Source: Salidesulfovibrio onnuriiensis (GTDB lineage: Bacteria > Desulfobacterota > Desulfovibrionia > Desulfovibrionales > Desulfovibrionaceae). From it: DNA of 64,000 nucleotides. The stretch is from assembly GCF_008001235.1 (NCBI RefSeq), contig NZ_CP040751.1:3413501-3477500 (forward strand), given 5' to 3'. The notes below the pieces were generated by a model. That model made no database searches. It was given only the letters and a program-made list of their open reading frames with translations, and was not told the DNA's origin. The translations under genes were made by a program, and so were the position numbers. This document shows, in pieces, positions 1 to 50,737 of this stretch (the first letter of the stretch is position 1; the number at the start of each line of letters is the position of its first letter).

Positions 1-1353
1 GATGATGGTATCGCCCTGCTCGAAAGCGGGATGATTCTTGACGAACTCCTCGGCCCGCTCCTGATGGTTGCTGAGGCTTGTATCAGGCGCTCCCGGAATA
101 ACCCCCCACGACAAGTTACAGAAATGCCTTGCAATGCTGTCGGATGTCAAGGCGTATACGCTCTGCTTGGGACGGCAGGAGGAAAGGATGCGCGCGGTCG
201 CACCGGAAGTGGAGTGGCAAACCAGGCCCTTGGCGTCGGTCTTTCCGGCCAGCATGGCGGCCGCATAGGCCAGGTAGGTGGCCGGGTGCTCCAGGTCGCC
301 GGGATGCAGGGCCACTTCGTCCTGCTGCTCGAAATAGAACTGTTCGATCTCGTAGGCGATGGTGCGCATGAAATCGACAGCTTCATAAGGATAGCTGCCG
401 ATGGCTGTTTCCTCGGAAAGCATGATGCAGTCCGCGCCGTCCAGGATGGCGTTGGCCACGTCCGTGGTTTCCGCGCGGGTGGCCATGGGCGTCTTGACCA
501 TGGAGAGCAGCATCTGGGTGGCCACGATAACCGGCATGCCGCGCTTGTTGCACGCGCGGATGATGCGCTTCTGGGTGGCGGGCAGCTCGGCCAGGTTCAT
601 TTCCAGGCCCAGGTCGCCGCGGGCGACCATGACGCCGTCGGTTTCATCCAGGATGCTGTCCAGGTTGTCGATGGCGGCGGTGGTTTCCAGCTTGGTGATG
701 ATGGGCAGGCGGCGTCCGAGCTTGTCCATCTCGGCCTTGAGCACCTTCAGGTCGTCGGCGGTCTGGACGTAGCTCAGGGCCACGCAGTCCACGCCGAGGC
801 CCATGCCGAAGGCCAGGTCTTCCTTGTCCTTCTCGGTCATGGCGTCCAGCGGAGTGACCTTGCCCGGGAAAGCAATGCCCTTGCGGGGCGGCGCAATGCC
901 GGAGTTGATGGCGCGCAGGCGGACCAGGTGCTCGTTTTCACGCTTAATGGCCGTGAAACGGAGCATGCCGTCGGAAAGGGCCACGGAGTCGCCTTCCTTG
1001 ATAACCTCGATCAGCTCGGGCATGTCCAGGCAGATAAAGGCGTCGCCGCCCTTGTCGGCCATGGCGCTGGTGCCGAGCATGACTTCGTCGCCCTTGTTGA
1101 TGTCCAGGGTACCCTTGCCCACGTCGGACGTACGCACCTTGGGACCGGAAAGGTCCTGCAGGATGGTCAGGGTGTAGCCGGTTTCCTCTTCCAGCTTGCG
1201 GATGATCTTCACGCGTTCGCTGAAGAATTCCTTGTCGCCGTGGGAGAAGTTCAGGCGGAAAATCTTGGCGCCGGAATGCACCAACTTCCTGATCTGGTCT
1301 TCTTCCTGGGTTGCGGGCCCGATGGTCGCAACGATCTTGATATGTCTGTCCAT
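1..1353 (-). CDS. pyk: Pyruvate kinase (3' end outside window)
   Basis: Converts phosphoenolpyruvate and ADP to pyruvate and ATP, the last step of glycolysis, in the cytoplasm. The leftward frame is open from an ATG at 1351-1353 to the window edge, 451 codons without a stop. The N-terminus contains KIVATIGPAT and the middle contains MVARGDLGLEMN, the usual pyruvate kinase signatures; the GDxG region binds metal and substrate. Full-length enzymes are about 470-480 residues, so only the last few dozen codons are missing. A GGAGG ribosome site lies at 1364-1368. The gene is divergent from the dcw cluster and has its own promoter at 1483-1511. A long open frame on the opposite strand is only a shadow of this gene. 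Confidence 0.96.
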   Translation of the reverse strand, partial: MDRHIKIVATIGPATQEEDQIRKLVHSGAKIFRLNFSHGDKEFFSERVKIIRKLEEETGYTLTILQDLSGPKVRTSDVGKGTLDINKGDEVMLGTSAMADKGGDAFICLDMPELIEVIKEGDSVALSDGMLRFTAIKRENEHLVRLRAINSGIAPPRKGIAFPGKVTPLDAMTEKDKEDLAFGMGLGVDCVALSYVQTADDLKVLKAEMDKLGRRLPIITKLETTAAIDNLDSILDETDGVMVARGDLGLEMNLAELPATQKRIIRACNKRGMPVIVATQMLLSMVKTPMATRAETTDVANAILDGADCIMLSEETAIGSYPYEAVDFMRTIAYEIEQFYFEQQDEVALHPGDLEHPATYLAYAAAMLAGKTDAKGLVCHSTSGATARILSSCRPKQSVYALTSDSIARHFCNLSWGVIPGAPDTSLSNHQERAEEFVKNHPAFEQGDTII

Positions 1354-46531: not shown

Positions 46532-48676
46532 TCATTTTTCGGGCGTGTACCCCAGCGGCAGTTGCTTGAAGCGCCCGCCCGTGAGGATGGGATCGCCCTT
46601 GTACCCGAGGGCCTTGAAGTCAATGTAGTCGGTGACGCCCACCAGATCGCCCACATCGCGGCCCCGCTCCTGCAGCACCTTGAAGTCCATGCCCTGCTTC
46701 GCCAGATCGCGGAACTTCAGGTTCCGGCCGTCCTGGTGGCAGCGGTCGCAGGTCTTGTCCCCTTCGAGGCTGGAATGGCACTGCACGCAGGACAGCGCGT
46801 ATTCCTTGGGCATGACCTCGTGCTCGATGCGCCAGTACATGTTGGTGGCCACCCACAGGTATTCCCCGCTATAGGGCAGCTTGGCCTTTTTCATGCCTTC
46901 CTCGAAGGCCTTCTGCCAGTCCCTGACCTTCCAGTAGGCGCTCGTGTCATCCTTGCCGTAGGGATACAGGTGAGGAATGAGCAAGTAGCGGTACTTGGCG
47001 TCCGCGGGCTGGATGCCAGCCATGACCTTGAACGGCGTTATCTTGGACTTGGGATCCAGCATCTCGCCCACCGGGGCGGTGATGTTGGTGACGACCAGGG
47101 CGCGCTTCTGCTCTTCGGTCAGTTCCTCGCCGGGGGCGAATCCCCGGGCCGCTGGATTGACGGCGTCCCCGAGCAGCAGACGGGTCATGAACCCGTTGTA
47201 CCAGCGGTACTGGGGCTTGGCGGATTCCTTCCACTCGAAGGAACCCTTCTTCCAGTCGTAGTCGGGCTTGCCATACTTGCCCTTGCCCACCACGCGCTTG
47301 GTGTCCCCGGCCGTGGACCAGTCCCACCAGGTCTTGGTGGCGGCGCACTTGGAGTAAACCGGGGAGTGGCAGGTATTGCAGGCCAGGGTGGCGCAATGCT
47401 TGTCCAGGTGATGATCCAGCAAGGTATCCCCGTAATGGGGCTTGTCCGTATGGCAATCCTCGCAGGCGCGGGAGCCTTCGGCCACCGGGGCCGAGGTGCT
47501 GCGCCCGGATATCTTGTGGTTGCGGGTCTTGTGGCAGTCCACGCAGCTGAAGTCGTAGCCGCCCATGTGCACGTCGCAGGTGCGCTTGGGCCAGAACAGC
47601 TCCACGCTCATGTCCGCGTGCTTGACCGCGTCGCCCCCGCCGCCGCTGAAGTGGCATTCGCCGCAGGTCTTGCGGCTGGTGGGGCCAACGTTCTTGGCCA
47701 CGTAGGCCAGATCCACCCTGGGGTCGGGCATGCCCGCCTTGGGCGGTGCCTTCATGTAGCTGCCGGTCGTGTCGTGGCACACCAGGCAGTCGATATTCTC
47801 GGCCTTGGTGAAGTCAAAGGTGTCGTCCTTCCATCCGTATCCCGCGTGGCATGATGTGCAACGAGCCTCGTTGCTGATGGGGGATATTCAGAAATTGTTG
47901 AGCGTCGTGGTGCCCTTGCCGGACATGACGCTCTTTCTGTGTTCCACGGTGTAGGGCGACGGACCGCGCCAGAGCCAATGGGCCGTCTGCAGCATGTCGG
48001 AACCGGCCTGCTGGTGGCAGCGCAGACATTCCGCAGTAACCTCCGAAGGCTTGGGGTTCCCGGACAGCTGCACCAGTTCGGTATGGTTCACGGGCTTTTT
48101 GGCGTGACAGCCGTCACAGCTCACCGGCCCCTTCTTCATGTCCTCGTGACACCCCATGCACTGCATGTGGTATGCGGCCTTCAGGCCCACCCGTTCCTTT
48201 TCCTGCTTCCGGAAGGCCTCCTGGTGGCAGGTGCGGCAGGCCACGGTTTCCTCGGCCTTGGTGTCCGCGGGACGGTAATGGTGGCAGGCGGCGCAGTCCC
48301 CCTTCAGGGAGGCCGCATGCTTGGAGTGCATGAAACGCACCGGACCGTACTTATCCTCGAAGGTGTTCACGAACGGGCTCTCAAGCAGGAAGTAGCTGTG
48401 CTTGATGTCCTTGAGGCCCAGGCCCTGCGCGCGCAGGCGCTGCTGCCGCAGGGGCAGGTCCTCCCTGTACACTTCGGAAACATAGGGAACCTTTTTGCGG
48501 GCCAGTTCCAGGGCCTTGGCCTGATCCTCGGCCACCCAGCCGTCGGGCCGGGGGTTCCTGTCCGTGCGGACCTTTTCCACATCGGACGCCGCACCGGTCG
48601 CGCCCAGGCTCGGCCCAGCGGAAAGACCGGCCAGGAGAACGGCCGCCGCCAGCAGGATATGAACGTATCTGACCAT
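46532..48676 (-). CDS. Selenocysteine-containing 13-heme cytochrome c, c3-like domain fused to octaheme tetrathionate-reductase-type domain
   Basis: I read this as one 714-residue periplasmic cytochrome with an in-frame TGA (47888-47890) at residue 263 decoded as selenocysteine. It has a signal peptide (about 1-26). A tetraheme c3-like part has CxxCH at 128, 147, 173 and 187 and a ligand-like HSKH. The larger part has CxxCH at 217, 273, 297, 338, 378, 405, 433, 630 and 643, with TKTWWDWSTAGD and DYIDFKALGYKGDP as in octaheme tetrathionate-reductase-type cytochromes. The TGA follows NNF, where I recall a conserved Cys. Both halves share one frame. The second half has no start before a GTG inside a heme motif and no signal peptide. 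Alternatives are a nonsense mutation or sequencing error. AGGAGGTG precedes the ATG. Confidence 0.78.
47858..47874 (-). promoter_or_regulatory. Candidate bacterial SECIS hairpin
   Basis: On the minus strand GCAACGA, loop GGC and TCGTTGC form a perfect 7-bp stem beginning 13 nt after the TGA, so the apical loop starts 20 nt after it. The first two loop bases are G. This fits the known bacterial SECIS rule: loop 16-37 nt from UGA, G in the first two loop positions, stem of at least 4 bp. Confidence 0.72.
47888..47890 (-). other. In-frame TGA, proposed selenocysteine codon
   Basis: The codon lies between NNF (residues 260-262) and ISPISNEARCTSCH (264 onward). Reading continues for 451 codons to the next stop. 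Confidence 0.75.
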
Positions 48677-48678
48677 TG

Positions 48679-49836
48679 TTACACCTCCTGCCTTCTGGCG
48701 GAAAGTACCGGGAACCAGGTCACGAACAACCGGTACAGGAAGAAGATGGTAGCCACGGCTCCCGCCGTGACCAGGATCTCGCCGATGGCCGGGTAATAGG
48801 GCTCCGTGGCGTACGGGGCCTTGAAGGAGACCACGAACACGTTGAAGCGGTTGAGCATGACGCCCCCCACGATCATGAGCGCGGCCGCGAACAGCAACCG
48901 CCGCGAACGGCGGACCGTCCCGAACAGGAGCATGAACCAGGGAACGACGACCCCCAGCCCCATCTCCACCAGGAAGGAATTGCTCTGCGGCGAACCGTCC
49001 AGCAGGGTCGCATAGGCCCCCCGCATGATCAGGTCGCCCAGCTTGAGCGCCATGTACACGCCGAGCGTGAGAATGGTGAACCGGGAAAGCGGGCTGAGCA
49101 CGTTCATCTCCGATTCAAGCCTGAGCGAGGAAGTGGCTATGGTGGTTTCCGCAATGACCATGGGATAGCCCACGGCAAAGGCCGATGTAAGGAAAAGCAG
49201 CGGCAGCATGGGGGTATACCAGAGGGGCGAGACCTTGGTGGGCGCGATGACCAGCAGCGTGCCCAGGCTGGACTGGTGCATGCATGAAAGCACCACGCCC
49301 AGGATGATGAAGATCCACATGGTCTTGTCCAGGATGCGGTCGAGAAAGGCCAGCAGCGGGATGCGGCTGCCCAGGCGCTCCGCCAGCACCGGAATGAACT
49401 CGATCCACAGCACGGTCACGTAGGTCATGACGCACATGGCCACCTCGAACAGGGCCGAGGTGTGGTTCTGGTAGAAGATGGGTTTCCAGATGGCCCAGGA
49501 CCTGCCGATATCCACGAACACGGCGATGGCCACGAAGGTGTAGCCCAGGGCCGCGGTGAGCAGGGCGGGCCGGGTGACGGCCTCGTAGTAATGCCTCCCC
49601 AGGATATGGGCCAGGAAGGCGGTGGTGAACCCGCCCGCGGCCAGGGCCACGCCCGAGGCCACGTCCAGGCCGATCCATATGCCCCAGGGGTAATGGTTAT
49701 TCAGGTTGGTGACGCCCCCGAGCCCGAAGGTGTAGCGGAACACGAGGGTCAGGGCCCCGGCGGCCATGAAGGCCAGCATGACCAGGGTCCCGGGGGTCCA
49801 GAAAGGCGCTTTCACGGGCTTGGGATCATGCGTCAT
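48679..49836 (-). CDS. NrfD/HybB/DsrP-like integral membrane quinone-reacting subunit
   Basis: Polytopic inner-membrane protein expected to exchange electrons with the quinone pool. The 385-residue protein has about ten hydrophobic helices and family-typical [20 protein letters not shown] and [20 protein letters not shown] segments. MHQSSLGTL carries a histidine common in the DsrP/HybB branch. It lies between the iron-sulfur gene (11-base overlap) and the multiheme cytochrome gene (2-base gap). This is the pattern of Hmc/Nhc/Ohc-type transmembrane redox complexes of sulfate reducers. Confidence 0.88.
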
Positions 49837-50737
49837 GGTCGTCCTCCTTGCTCCGGGACCGCCTGGAAGTGAAGCCCATCAAGGCTCCCAGCGCCGCAAA
49901 AAGGGCGATGGGCGACCAGAGATAGCTGAACATGGTGCTCTGGATGGTTTCCGTGACCTTGGGCATGGGCTCCGTGGGCATTTCGTGGAATCCCACCTTG
50001 GCGAAGGAAACGCCCGAAAGATACAGCCAGCTCGTGCCCCCCACCTCGTTTTCGCCGTAGACATGGTCCACGTACTTGGCGGGGTCGTTGTCGATGCGGG
50101 CATGGGCCTGCCCGAGCAGGTCGTTGCGCCTGCCGAAGGTGATGGCCTCCACCGGGCAGATGGAGGCGCAGCCGGGCAGCTTGCCCTCCTGCTCCACCCG
50201 CTCGTAGCAAAAGGTGCACTTGCGCACCCTCGGCGTAATGGGCTCATGATACTCGTAGGCCGGGATCTCGAACGGGCATGCCGCCATGCAGTAGCGGCAG
50301 CCGATACATTTCTCCACGTCATAATGCACGGTGCCGTTTTCCTTCTTGGTCAGGGCTCCGGTGATGCATGCGGAAACACAGGCCGGGTCCTGGCAGTGCA
50401 TGCACTGGACCTTCACGAAGGTGGGCGCCAGCCTGTCGCGGTCGTCCAGCCGCCCCGTGTAATAGCGGTTGACCACCGTGTAGCTCCGGTGGTCGGGACG
50501 CCGCAGCCGGTCCATGACGGTCAGGTCGTCAAACGGCATTTCCGGTTCGGGCAGCTTGTTGACCTCGTTGCAGGCCTGCTCGCACTTGCGGCACCCCACG
50601 CAACGCGTCAGGTCCACAAGGCACCCGTAGGGGGCGGGAGGCGCTTTCGACTCCCAGGCCCGCGCATTGTCGGGAACTGCGGCGGCCGCCCCAAGGGCTC
50701 CGAGATTCCCCAAAAAAACCCTCCGAGACACTTTCAT
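49826..50737 (-). CDS. HybA-like periplasmic four-cluster ferredoxin subunit with membrane anchor
   Basis: Electron-transfer subunit. The 303-residue protein has a Tat-type leader ([20 protein letters not shown]) with an SRRVF motif and four groups of cysteines for [4Fe-4S] clusters ([45 protein letters not shown]...CASIC). A C-terminal membrane helix (about 270-290) anchors it. It closely fits HybA/DsrO-type proteins. As first gene of the leftward operon, it would pass electrons between the NrfD-like subunit and the cytochrome. GAGGAGGAA precedes the ATG. Confidence 0.9.

Follow-up and report, generated by a model that had tools for sequence, protein, structure and literature searches.

Whether the UGA codon that interrupts a multiheme cytochrome gene of Salidesulfovibrio onnuriiensis is a stop codon, an error or a codon for selenocysteine (Sec) was investigated in a 64,000-nucleotide stretch of contig NZ_CP040751.1, hereafter called the window. 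The results below make it highly probable that codon 263 would be read as Sec in a cytochrome with 13 hemes that belongs to the octaheme tetrathionate reductase (OTR) family, with the mechanism proposed in the last section.

The cytochrome gene and its in-frame UGA

The gene occupied 48676 to 46532 of the minus strand and consisted of 714 codons in one frame, with the TGA at 47890-47888 (codon 263) as the sole interruption. The frame was made up of 262 codons, this TGA, 451 codons and the terminal TGA at 46534-46532. The start codon ATG (48676-48674) was preceded by AGGAGG with 7 nt between them. The initial annotation had given this single-frame gene with correct coordinates and codon numbers, leaving the strand unstated. 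The features of the gene and its product were as follows.

46532..48676, minus strand: OTR-family 13-heme cytochrome gene of 714 codons with an in-frame TGA (profile, 1sp3 alignment, CxxCH count)
N-terminal end of the 714-codon product, minus strand: signal-like N-terminus (by eye)
Residues 108-191, minus strand: class III cytochrome c region with four CxxCH (profile match)
Residues about 198-636, minus strand: OTR domain with eight CxxCH (profile, alignment)
Residue 643, minus strand: 13th CxxCH (motif count)
47888..47890, minus strand: codon 263, an in-frame TGA predicted to encode selenocysteine (equivalent to Cys64 in the 1sp3 alignment)
47858..47874, minus strand: class I SECIS-type hairpin GCAACGA-GGC-UCGUUGC, starting 13 nt after the TGA

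Profile analysis assigned the cytochrome to the OTR family, TIGR04315, with 478.7 bits for the joined product (cut-off 375). The upstream half matched profile positions 3-64 (37.9 bits) and the downstream half matched positions 67-429 (419.5 bits); the two halves were thus consecutive pieces of one profile, which places the TGA inside one domain. The 13 CxxCH motifs started at residues 128, 147, 173, 187, 217, 273, 297, 338, 378, 405, 433, 630 and 643, those from 217 to 630 being the eight of the OTR domain. Alignment with the Shewanella OTR (1sp3) covered residues 210-635 (E 2e-110). Counted along this alignment, codon 263 was the equivalent of Cys64 and Lys352 the equivalent of Lys153, and the CxxCH of OTR heme II started at residue 273, ten residues past the TGA codon. 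In the Shewanella OTR, Lys153 is a ligand of heme II and Cys64 lies close by; these two residues were reportedly treated by Mowat et al. in 2004. Heme II is named as the catalytic heme in the available text of PMC4484225. An AlphaFold model (mean pLDDT 68.5) had values below 50 for residues 246-278 around the site and held no hemes, and was set aside as weak structural evidence.

If the UGA were a true stop, the downstream half would be made as a separate protein or never. Four database proteins of 424-425 aa (P0095, P0113, P0116 and P0118) start just after the site, as this explanation would have it. However, a stop at this codon would split the OTR domain between heme I and heme II, and the relatives with Cys at the site are one protein. 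As the initial annotation had argued, the downstream part is also ill-suited to stand alone, its earliest ATG, GTG or TTG being the GTG at 47782 within CLVCH, with no signal peptide ahead of it. Two separate products are therefore very improbable. The four short proteins begin with MNN or MQN before [IM]DCL, and they look like UGA forms that were cut by gene prediction.

Cysteine and UGA at codon 263 in relatives

In 168 aligned loci (family loci and named genomes, repeats included), the residue at position 263 was Cys in 141 and TGA in 27, and the equivalent of Lys352 was Lys in 168/168. The 288 genomes of the family contained 87 over-cut-off OTR matches, of which 70 were of the soluble type (the eight OTR motifs only) and 17 were of the fused type (OTR plus the N-terminal class III region). 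One TGA was found in 14 of the 70 soluble and 6 of the 17 fused OTRs, and all 20 were at this codon. Among these matches, 86 of the 87 were taken as loci (one in G267 was missing), together with the weaker L106 and L107; one source listing of relatives retained 80 of 110 rows.

In an even sample of 395 genomes of the phylum, 79 over-cut-off OTRs were found, and 31 of them, across 13 family codes, had one TGA. Besides the window's own gene, the 30 TGA-bearing OTRs of this sample all had the TGA at the codon-263 position. In the placement of 79 loci at this codon, 11 escaped automatic assignment; by their sequence context nine of these have C there and two (L255 and L256) have U, and all 11 stood outside the Cys/Sec counts. 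After removal of 11 repeats (ten loci present twice, and L071/L072, identical in sequence but from two genomes), 55 UGA and 174 Cys genes became 54 and 170 distinct ones, with one Thr locus counted apart. L059 and L108, and likewise L075 and L129, were identical over the 300 nt surrounding the site.

At this codon, TGA, TGC and TGT all occurred in the relatives. A nonsense mutation or a base-calling error, giving a decayed or misread TGC/TGT gene, would need a single base, since TGA is one base from either codon, and more relatives have Cys there than any other residue. However, 54 distinct sequences, drawn from many genomes, shared the TGA at this codon, and no other UGA was found within the matched domain of the 27 UGA loci of the 168-locus set or the 30 of the phylum sample. 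The codons of the downstream hairpin were also frozen, as described below, and the downstream half, far from degenerating, was intact here with its 419.5 bits and conserved in the relatives. Mutation or error is hardly credible as an explanation.

Among the 120 database homologues listed (of 3937), 105 had Cys at the site, nine Leu, one Ala and one Thr, and four started after it. The non-Cys rows were thus 11 of the 116 that span the site; with 829 to 795 bits they form a diverged part of the listed homologues. Locus L286 also had Thr. The conserved Cys named in the initial annotation held as Cys or TGA for 168/168 loci, but not for these 11 homologues or L286. The Leu, Ala and Thr forms suggest that a thiol or selenol is dispensable in some relatives. 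These homologues (P0106-P0108, P0110, P0111, P0114, P0117 and P0119-P0122) were of the fused type, and some were changed near the Lys motif.

S. onnuriiensis had a second OTR, L009 (G000:C1:3482033-3483463), about 4.5 kb past the end of the window. It was a soluble-type gene whose codon at the site was TGC, whereas TGA stood there in 11 further soluble-type members of its clade. Three OTR-like sequences below the family cut-off were also noted. L255 and L256, from other families, each had one UGA, in SYU-APPN or TYU-APPN, and perhaps represent another Sec subfamily; L257 (G330:C15:17216-18403) had an in-frame TAG inside the match.

The SECIS-type hairpin and the selenocysteine machinery

The hairpin was compared with the bSECIS rules as given in the available part of PMC13188914: a loop of 3-9 nt with G in the first two loop positions, located 16-37 nt after the UGA, a stem of 4-16 bp and an MFE of -7.5 kcal/mol or lower. 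The cytochrome hairpin, with a GGC loop 20 nt after the UGA, a stem of 7 bp and -9.0 kcal/mol, agreed with these rules. The same agreement was found in 54/54 distinct UGA-OTR genes and in 6/170 distinct Cys genes. The rules alone are weak proof, because 337 of the 1682 TGA trinucleotides of the window also conformed to them. The hairpin energy was no more than moderately better than that of shuffled sequences, with a z of -2.14 and 9 of 200 shuffles as good. A longer fold with an outer stem or longer flanks (z -1.12) was set aside as weak.

Conservation of the hairpin was more specific. The pattern TGA-N13-GCAACGAGNCTCGTTGC had 20 matches in the 288 family genomes, one in each of the 20 UGA-OTRs and none elsewhere; its reversed control had 0 matches in the same genomes. 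In these 20 genes the 13 spacer bases were variable and the hairpin was constant. They shared 127 invariant residues (Met and Trp excluded), of which 13 had a single codon throughout; the UGA together with hairpin codons 268-273, six in a row, accounted for seven of these 13. Such single-codon use across the hairpin codons is a signature of selection on the RNA.

Two classes of hairpin were distinguished among the 54 distinct UGA genes. Class I (GCAACGA-GGC-UCGUUGC, loop 20 nt after the UGA) was present in 25, both fused and soluble, one of them with the loop GUC. Class II (CUGGUGC-AGGU-GCACCAG and close variants, loop 24 nt after the UGA) was present in 29, three of them with the loop AGUU. 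In the class II gene L253, one C-G pair was replaced by U-A, with both sides changed.

The hairpin also left a mark on the protein. At x of the motif N-[E/W]-x-R-C before heme II, Pro was found in 122 of the 170 Cys genes, L009 included, and in 0 of the 54 UGA genes, where the residue was Cys in 29, Ala in 24 and Ser in one. The absence from 54/54 Sec forms of the Pro that is common in Cys forms suggests that the RNA hairpin dictates the protein sequence. The class II UGA genes (L145, L146, L171, L210 and others) read N-W-C-[RS]-C, which places an additional Cys eight positions past the predicted Sec; this Cys could be a redox partner or a mere by-product of the hairpin.

Two Cys genes, L061 and L084, kept SNEARC, with the Ala characteristic of class I UGA genes, together with 15/17 and 14/17 of the hairpin bases, respectively, and the differences were silent. 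L084 fell in a four-row clade (99% support) with three UGA genes. Judged by these remnants, both may once have been Sec genes. For a quick tree, 129 rows were used without the columns of the site and the hairpin; the repeats L108 and L129 were omitted and some distant Cys rows (130 and up) were thinned, with no other Sec row dropped. On this tree the Cys/Sec state needed six changes, five of them forced by starred branches, compared with a shuffled mean of 24. Cys and Sec thus appear to have switched at least five times, and the tree gives no direction of gain or loss.

The genome of S. onnuriiensis (one contig of 3,886,744 bases, completeness 100) was searched for the Sec machinery, and all of the components sought were present: tRNA-Sec with anticodon UCA (84.6 bits), and by profile SelA (615.6 bits), SelB (402.2 bits) and SelD (327.6 bits). 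A second over-cut-off tRNA-Sec match (48.3 bits) was rejected as a tRNA-Trp by ARAGORN. SelD had an in-frame TGA of its own, within KAAG-U-AAK. In this gene (L020, G000:C1:1015077-1016003), a hairpin of -14.3 kcal/mol after the TGA agreed with the bSECIS rules. SelB was over the cut-off in 17/17 other UGA-OTR genomes of the family; its presence is not discriminating, because 31 of the 33 tested genomes without a UGA-OTR had SelB too.

The UGA might instead be decoded as Trp, Cys or some other residue than Sec through near-cognate or tRNA-based suppression, with the hairpin acting as a stimulator of read-through; the bSECIS rules are loose, and residue 263 is a prediction from DNA. However, the full Sec machinery, the tRNA-Sec(UCA) and the UGA-bearing SelD in the same genome, the Cys at the site in most relatives, and the position and loop of the hairpin all speak for Sec, and there is only a slight chance of another amino acid. 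SelB-dependent insertion of Sec at codon 263 is very likely on these grounds.

Operon, proposed mechanism and related systems

Two genes upstream of the cytochrome gene were arranged with it as an operon.

48679..49836, minus strand: gene for an NrfD-family membrane subunit (HybB/HmcC-like), separated by 2 nt from the start of the cytochrome gene
49826..50737, minus strand: gene for a 4Fe-4S protein (HmcB/HybA-like), sharing 11 nt with the NrfD-family gene

The 4Fe-4S protein had a twin-arginine-like N-terminus (by eye). Among the 27 fused-type rows (L059 and L108 being one contig), the NrfD-type gene was found in 26 and the FeS gene in 25 within the fetched stretch; the stretch of L115 ended before both partner genes, and that of L010 ended before the FeS gene, which is present in the window. 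The FeS-NrfD-cytochrome operon is conserved in the fused type. Outside the fused-type rows, L118 and L131 also had an NrfD-type match, many of the remaining loci having short flanks.

A periplasmic-type FeS protein, an NrfD-type subunit and a multiheme cytochrome are also combined in the Hmc and Hyb complexes (HmcB/HmcC and HybA/HybB). However, the partner genes here were below the curated NCBIfam cut-offs (HmcB 350.9 bits of 420, HybA 257.2 of 263, HybB-type 328 of 450, HmcC 272 of 550), and the cytochrome was of the OTR type, with 66.2 bits of 400 for the 16-heme HmcA; the scores for HmcA, HmcB and HmcC thus gave no assignment to the Hmc complex. By description alone, the system may also be likened to the octaheme cytochrome (Ohc) complex OhcABB2C of a sulfate reducer, whose assumed partners in the available text of PMC6491731 are TpIc3/MQ. 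With the Shewanella oneidensis OTR (1sp3) the cytochrome shares the OTR domain, the eight heme motifs and the positions of Cys64 and Lys153, but it has UGA for the Cys64 codon, an extra N-terminal tetraheme region, a 13th heme motif and the operon with FeS and NrfD-type genes.

The following mechanism is proposed. UGA codon 263 would be translated as Sec, replacing the Cys found in most relatives; SelB carrying Sec-tRNA(UCA) would be recruited by the hairpin that begins 13 nt downstream of this codon, and translation would continue for 451 residues. After export and heme attachment, a selenolate would come to stand beside the catalytic heme II, whose CxxCH starts ten residues on, and the conserved Lys352; its position adjoining heme II is likely. 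As a more nucleophilic counterpart of Cys64, the selenolate would plausibly open an S-S bond in tetrathionate or a similar compound. Electrons would pass from menaquinol through the NrfD-type subunit, the 4Fe-4S protein and then the N-terminal tetraheme region; menaquinol is a plausible donor by analogy with the HybB/HmcC- and HmcB/HybA-type families.

The cytochrome may instead be a selenoprotein with a role other than polythionate reduction, namely nitrite or hydroxylamine reduction, detoxification, or the delivery of electrons into the menaquinone pool. According to the available text of PMC4484225, the Shewanella enzyme reduces nitrite and hydroxylamine besides tetrathionate, and in that of PMC6449678 both nitrite and tetrathionate are substrates of a homologue from a Beggiatoaceae. 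For the Ohc/Nhc complexes of sulfate reducers, the part of PMC6491731 that was available assumes type I cytochrome c3 and menaquinone as partners, which is the reverse direction. A selenol beside a heme would fit S-S chemistry best, but such another role is a serious contender that comes fairly close to an even chance. Returning to polythionate reduction, we tentatively suggest, as an idea that is rather doubtful at present, that much of the phylum's OTR respiration may run on heme-plus-selenium chemistry, in which the selenolate would attack the S-S bond of a polythionate or polysulfide and the Lys-ligated heme would reduce the Se-S adduct. To our knowledge, such a two-centre mechanism of selenolate and heme is known for no multiheme reductase.

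The initial annotation had called the cytochrome a probable new selenoprotein. The Sec reading is strongly supported by the site, the hairpin and the machinery, but the family is already on record: in the accessible part of the 2026 review PMC13188914, Table 1 has a line for a 'Tetrathionate reductase family octaheme c-type cytochrome', which is assigned to TIGR04315 with one Sec, carries the accession WP_331457571.1 and is marked as annotated in GenBank, with no motif. WP_331457571.1 shares the TIGR04315 model and the single Sec with the cytochrome, compared by a table entry that gives neither motif nor position. By this line of the table, the Sec form of TIGR04315 was already known as a kind. 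The same table lists ExtKL (NF040886), likewise a multiheme c-type cytochrome, as a selenoprotein; ExtKL is of a different family, and NF040886 was absent from the NCBIfam matches of our cytochrome at E 0.001. Beyond that single table line, no account of a Sec-OTR was found in the accessible portions of the open-access literature on octaheme and multiheme selenoproteins. The present analysis adds the position of the predicted Sec, the fused type and its operon, two classes of hairpin, the mark on the protein and the repeated switching in 13 family-level groups.

UGA forms are at risk of being split in annotation, so surveys of polythionate or nitrite reduction may undercount them. The natural exchange of Cys and Sec at a single codon, seen in two paralogues as well as in close relatives, provides matched enzyme pairs for testing the residue beside a multiheme catalytic site, and S. 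onnuriiensis itself carries a Cys copy alongside the UGA form.
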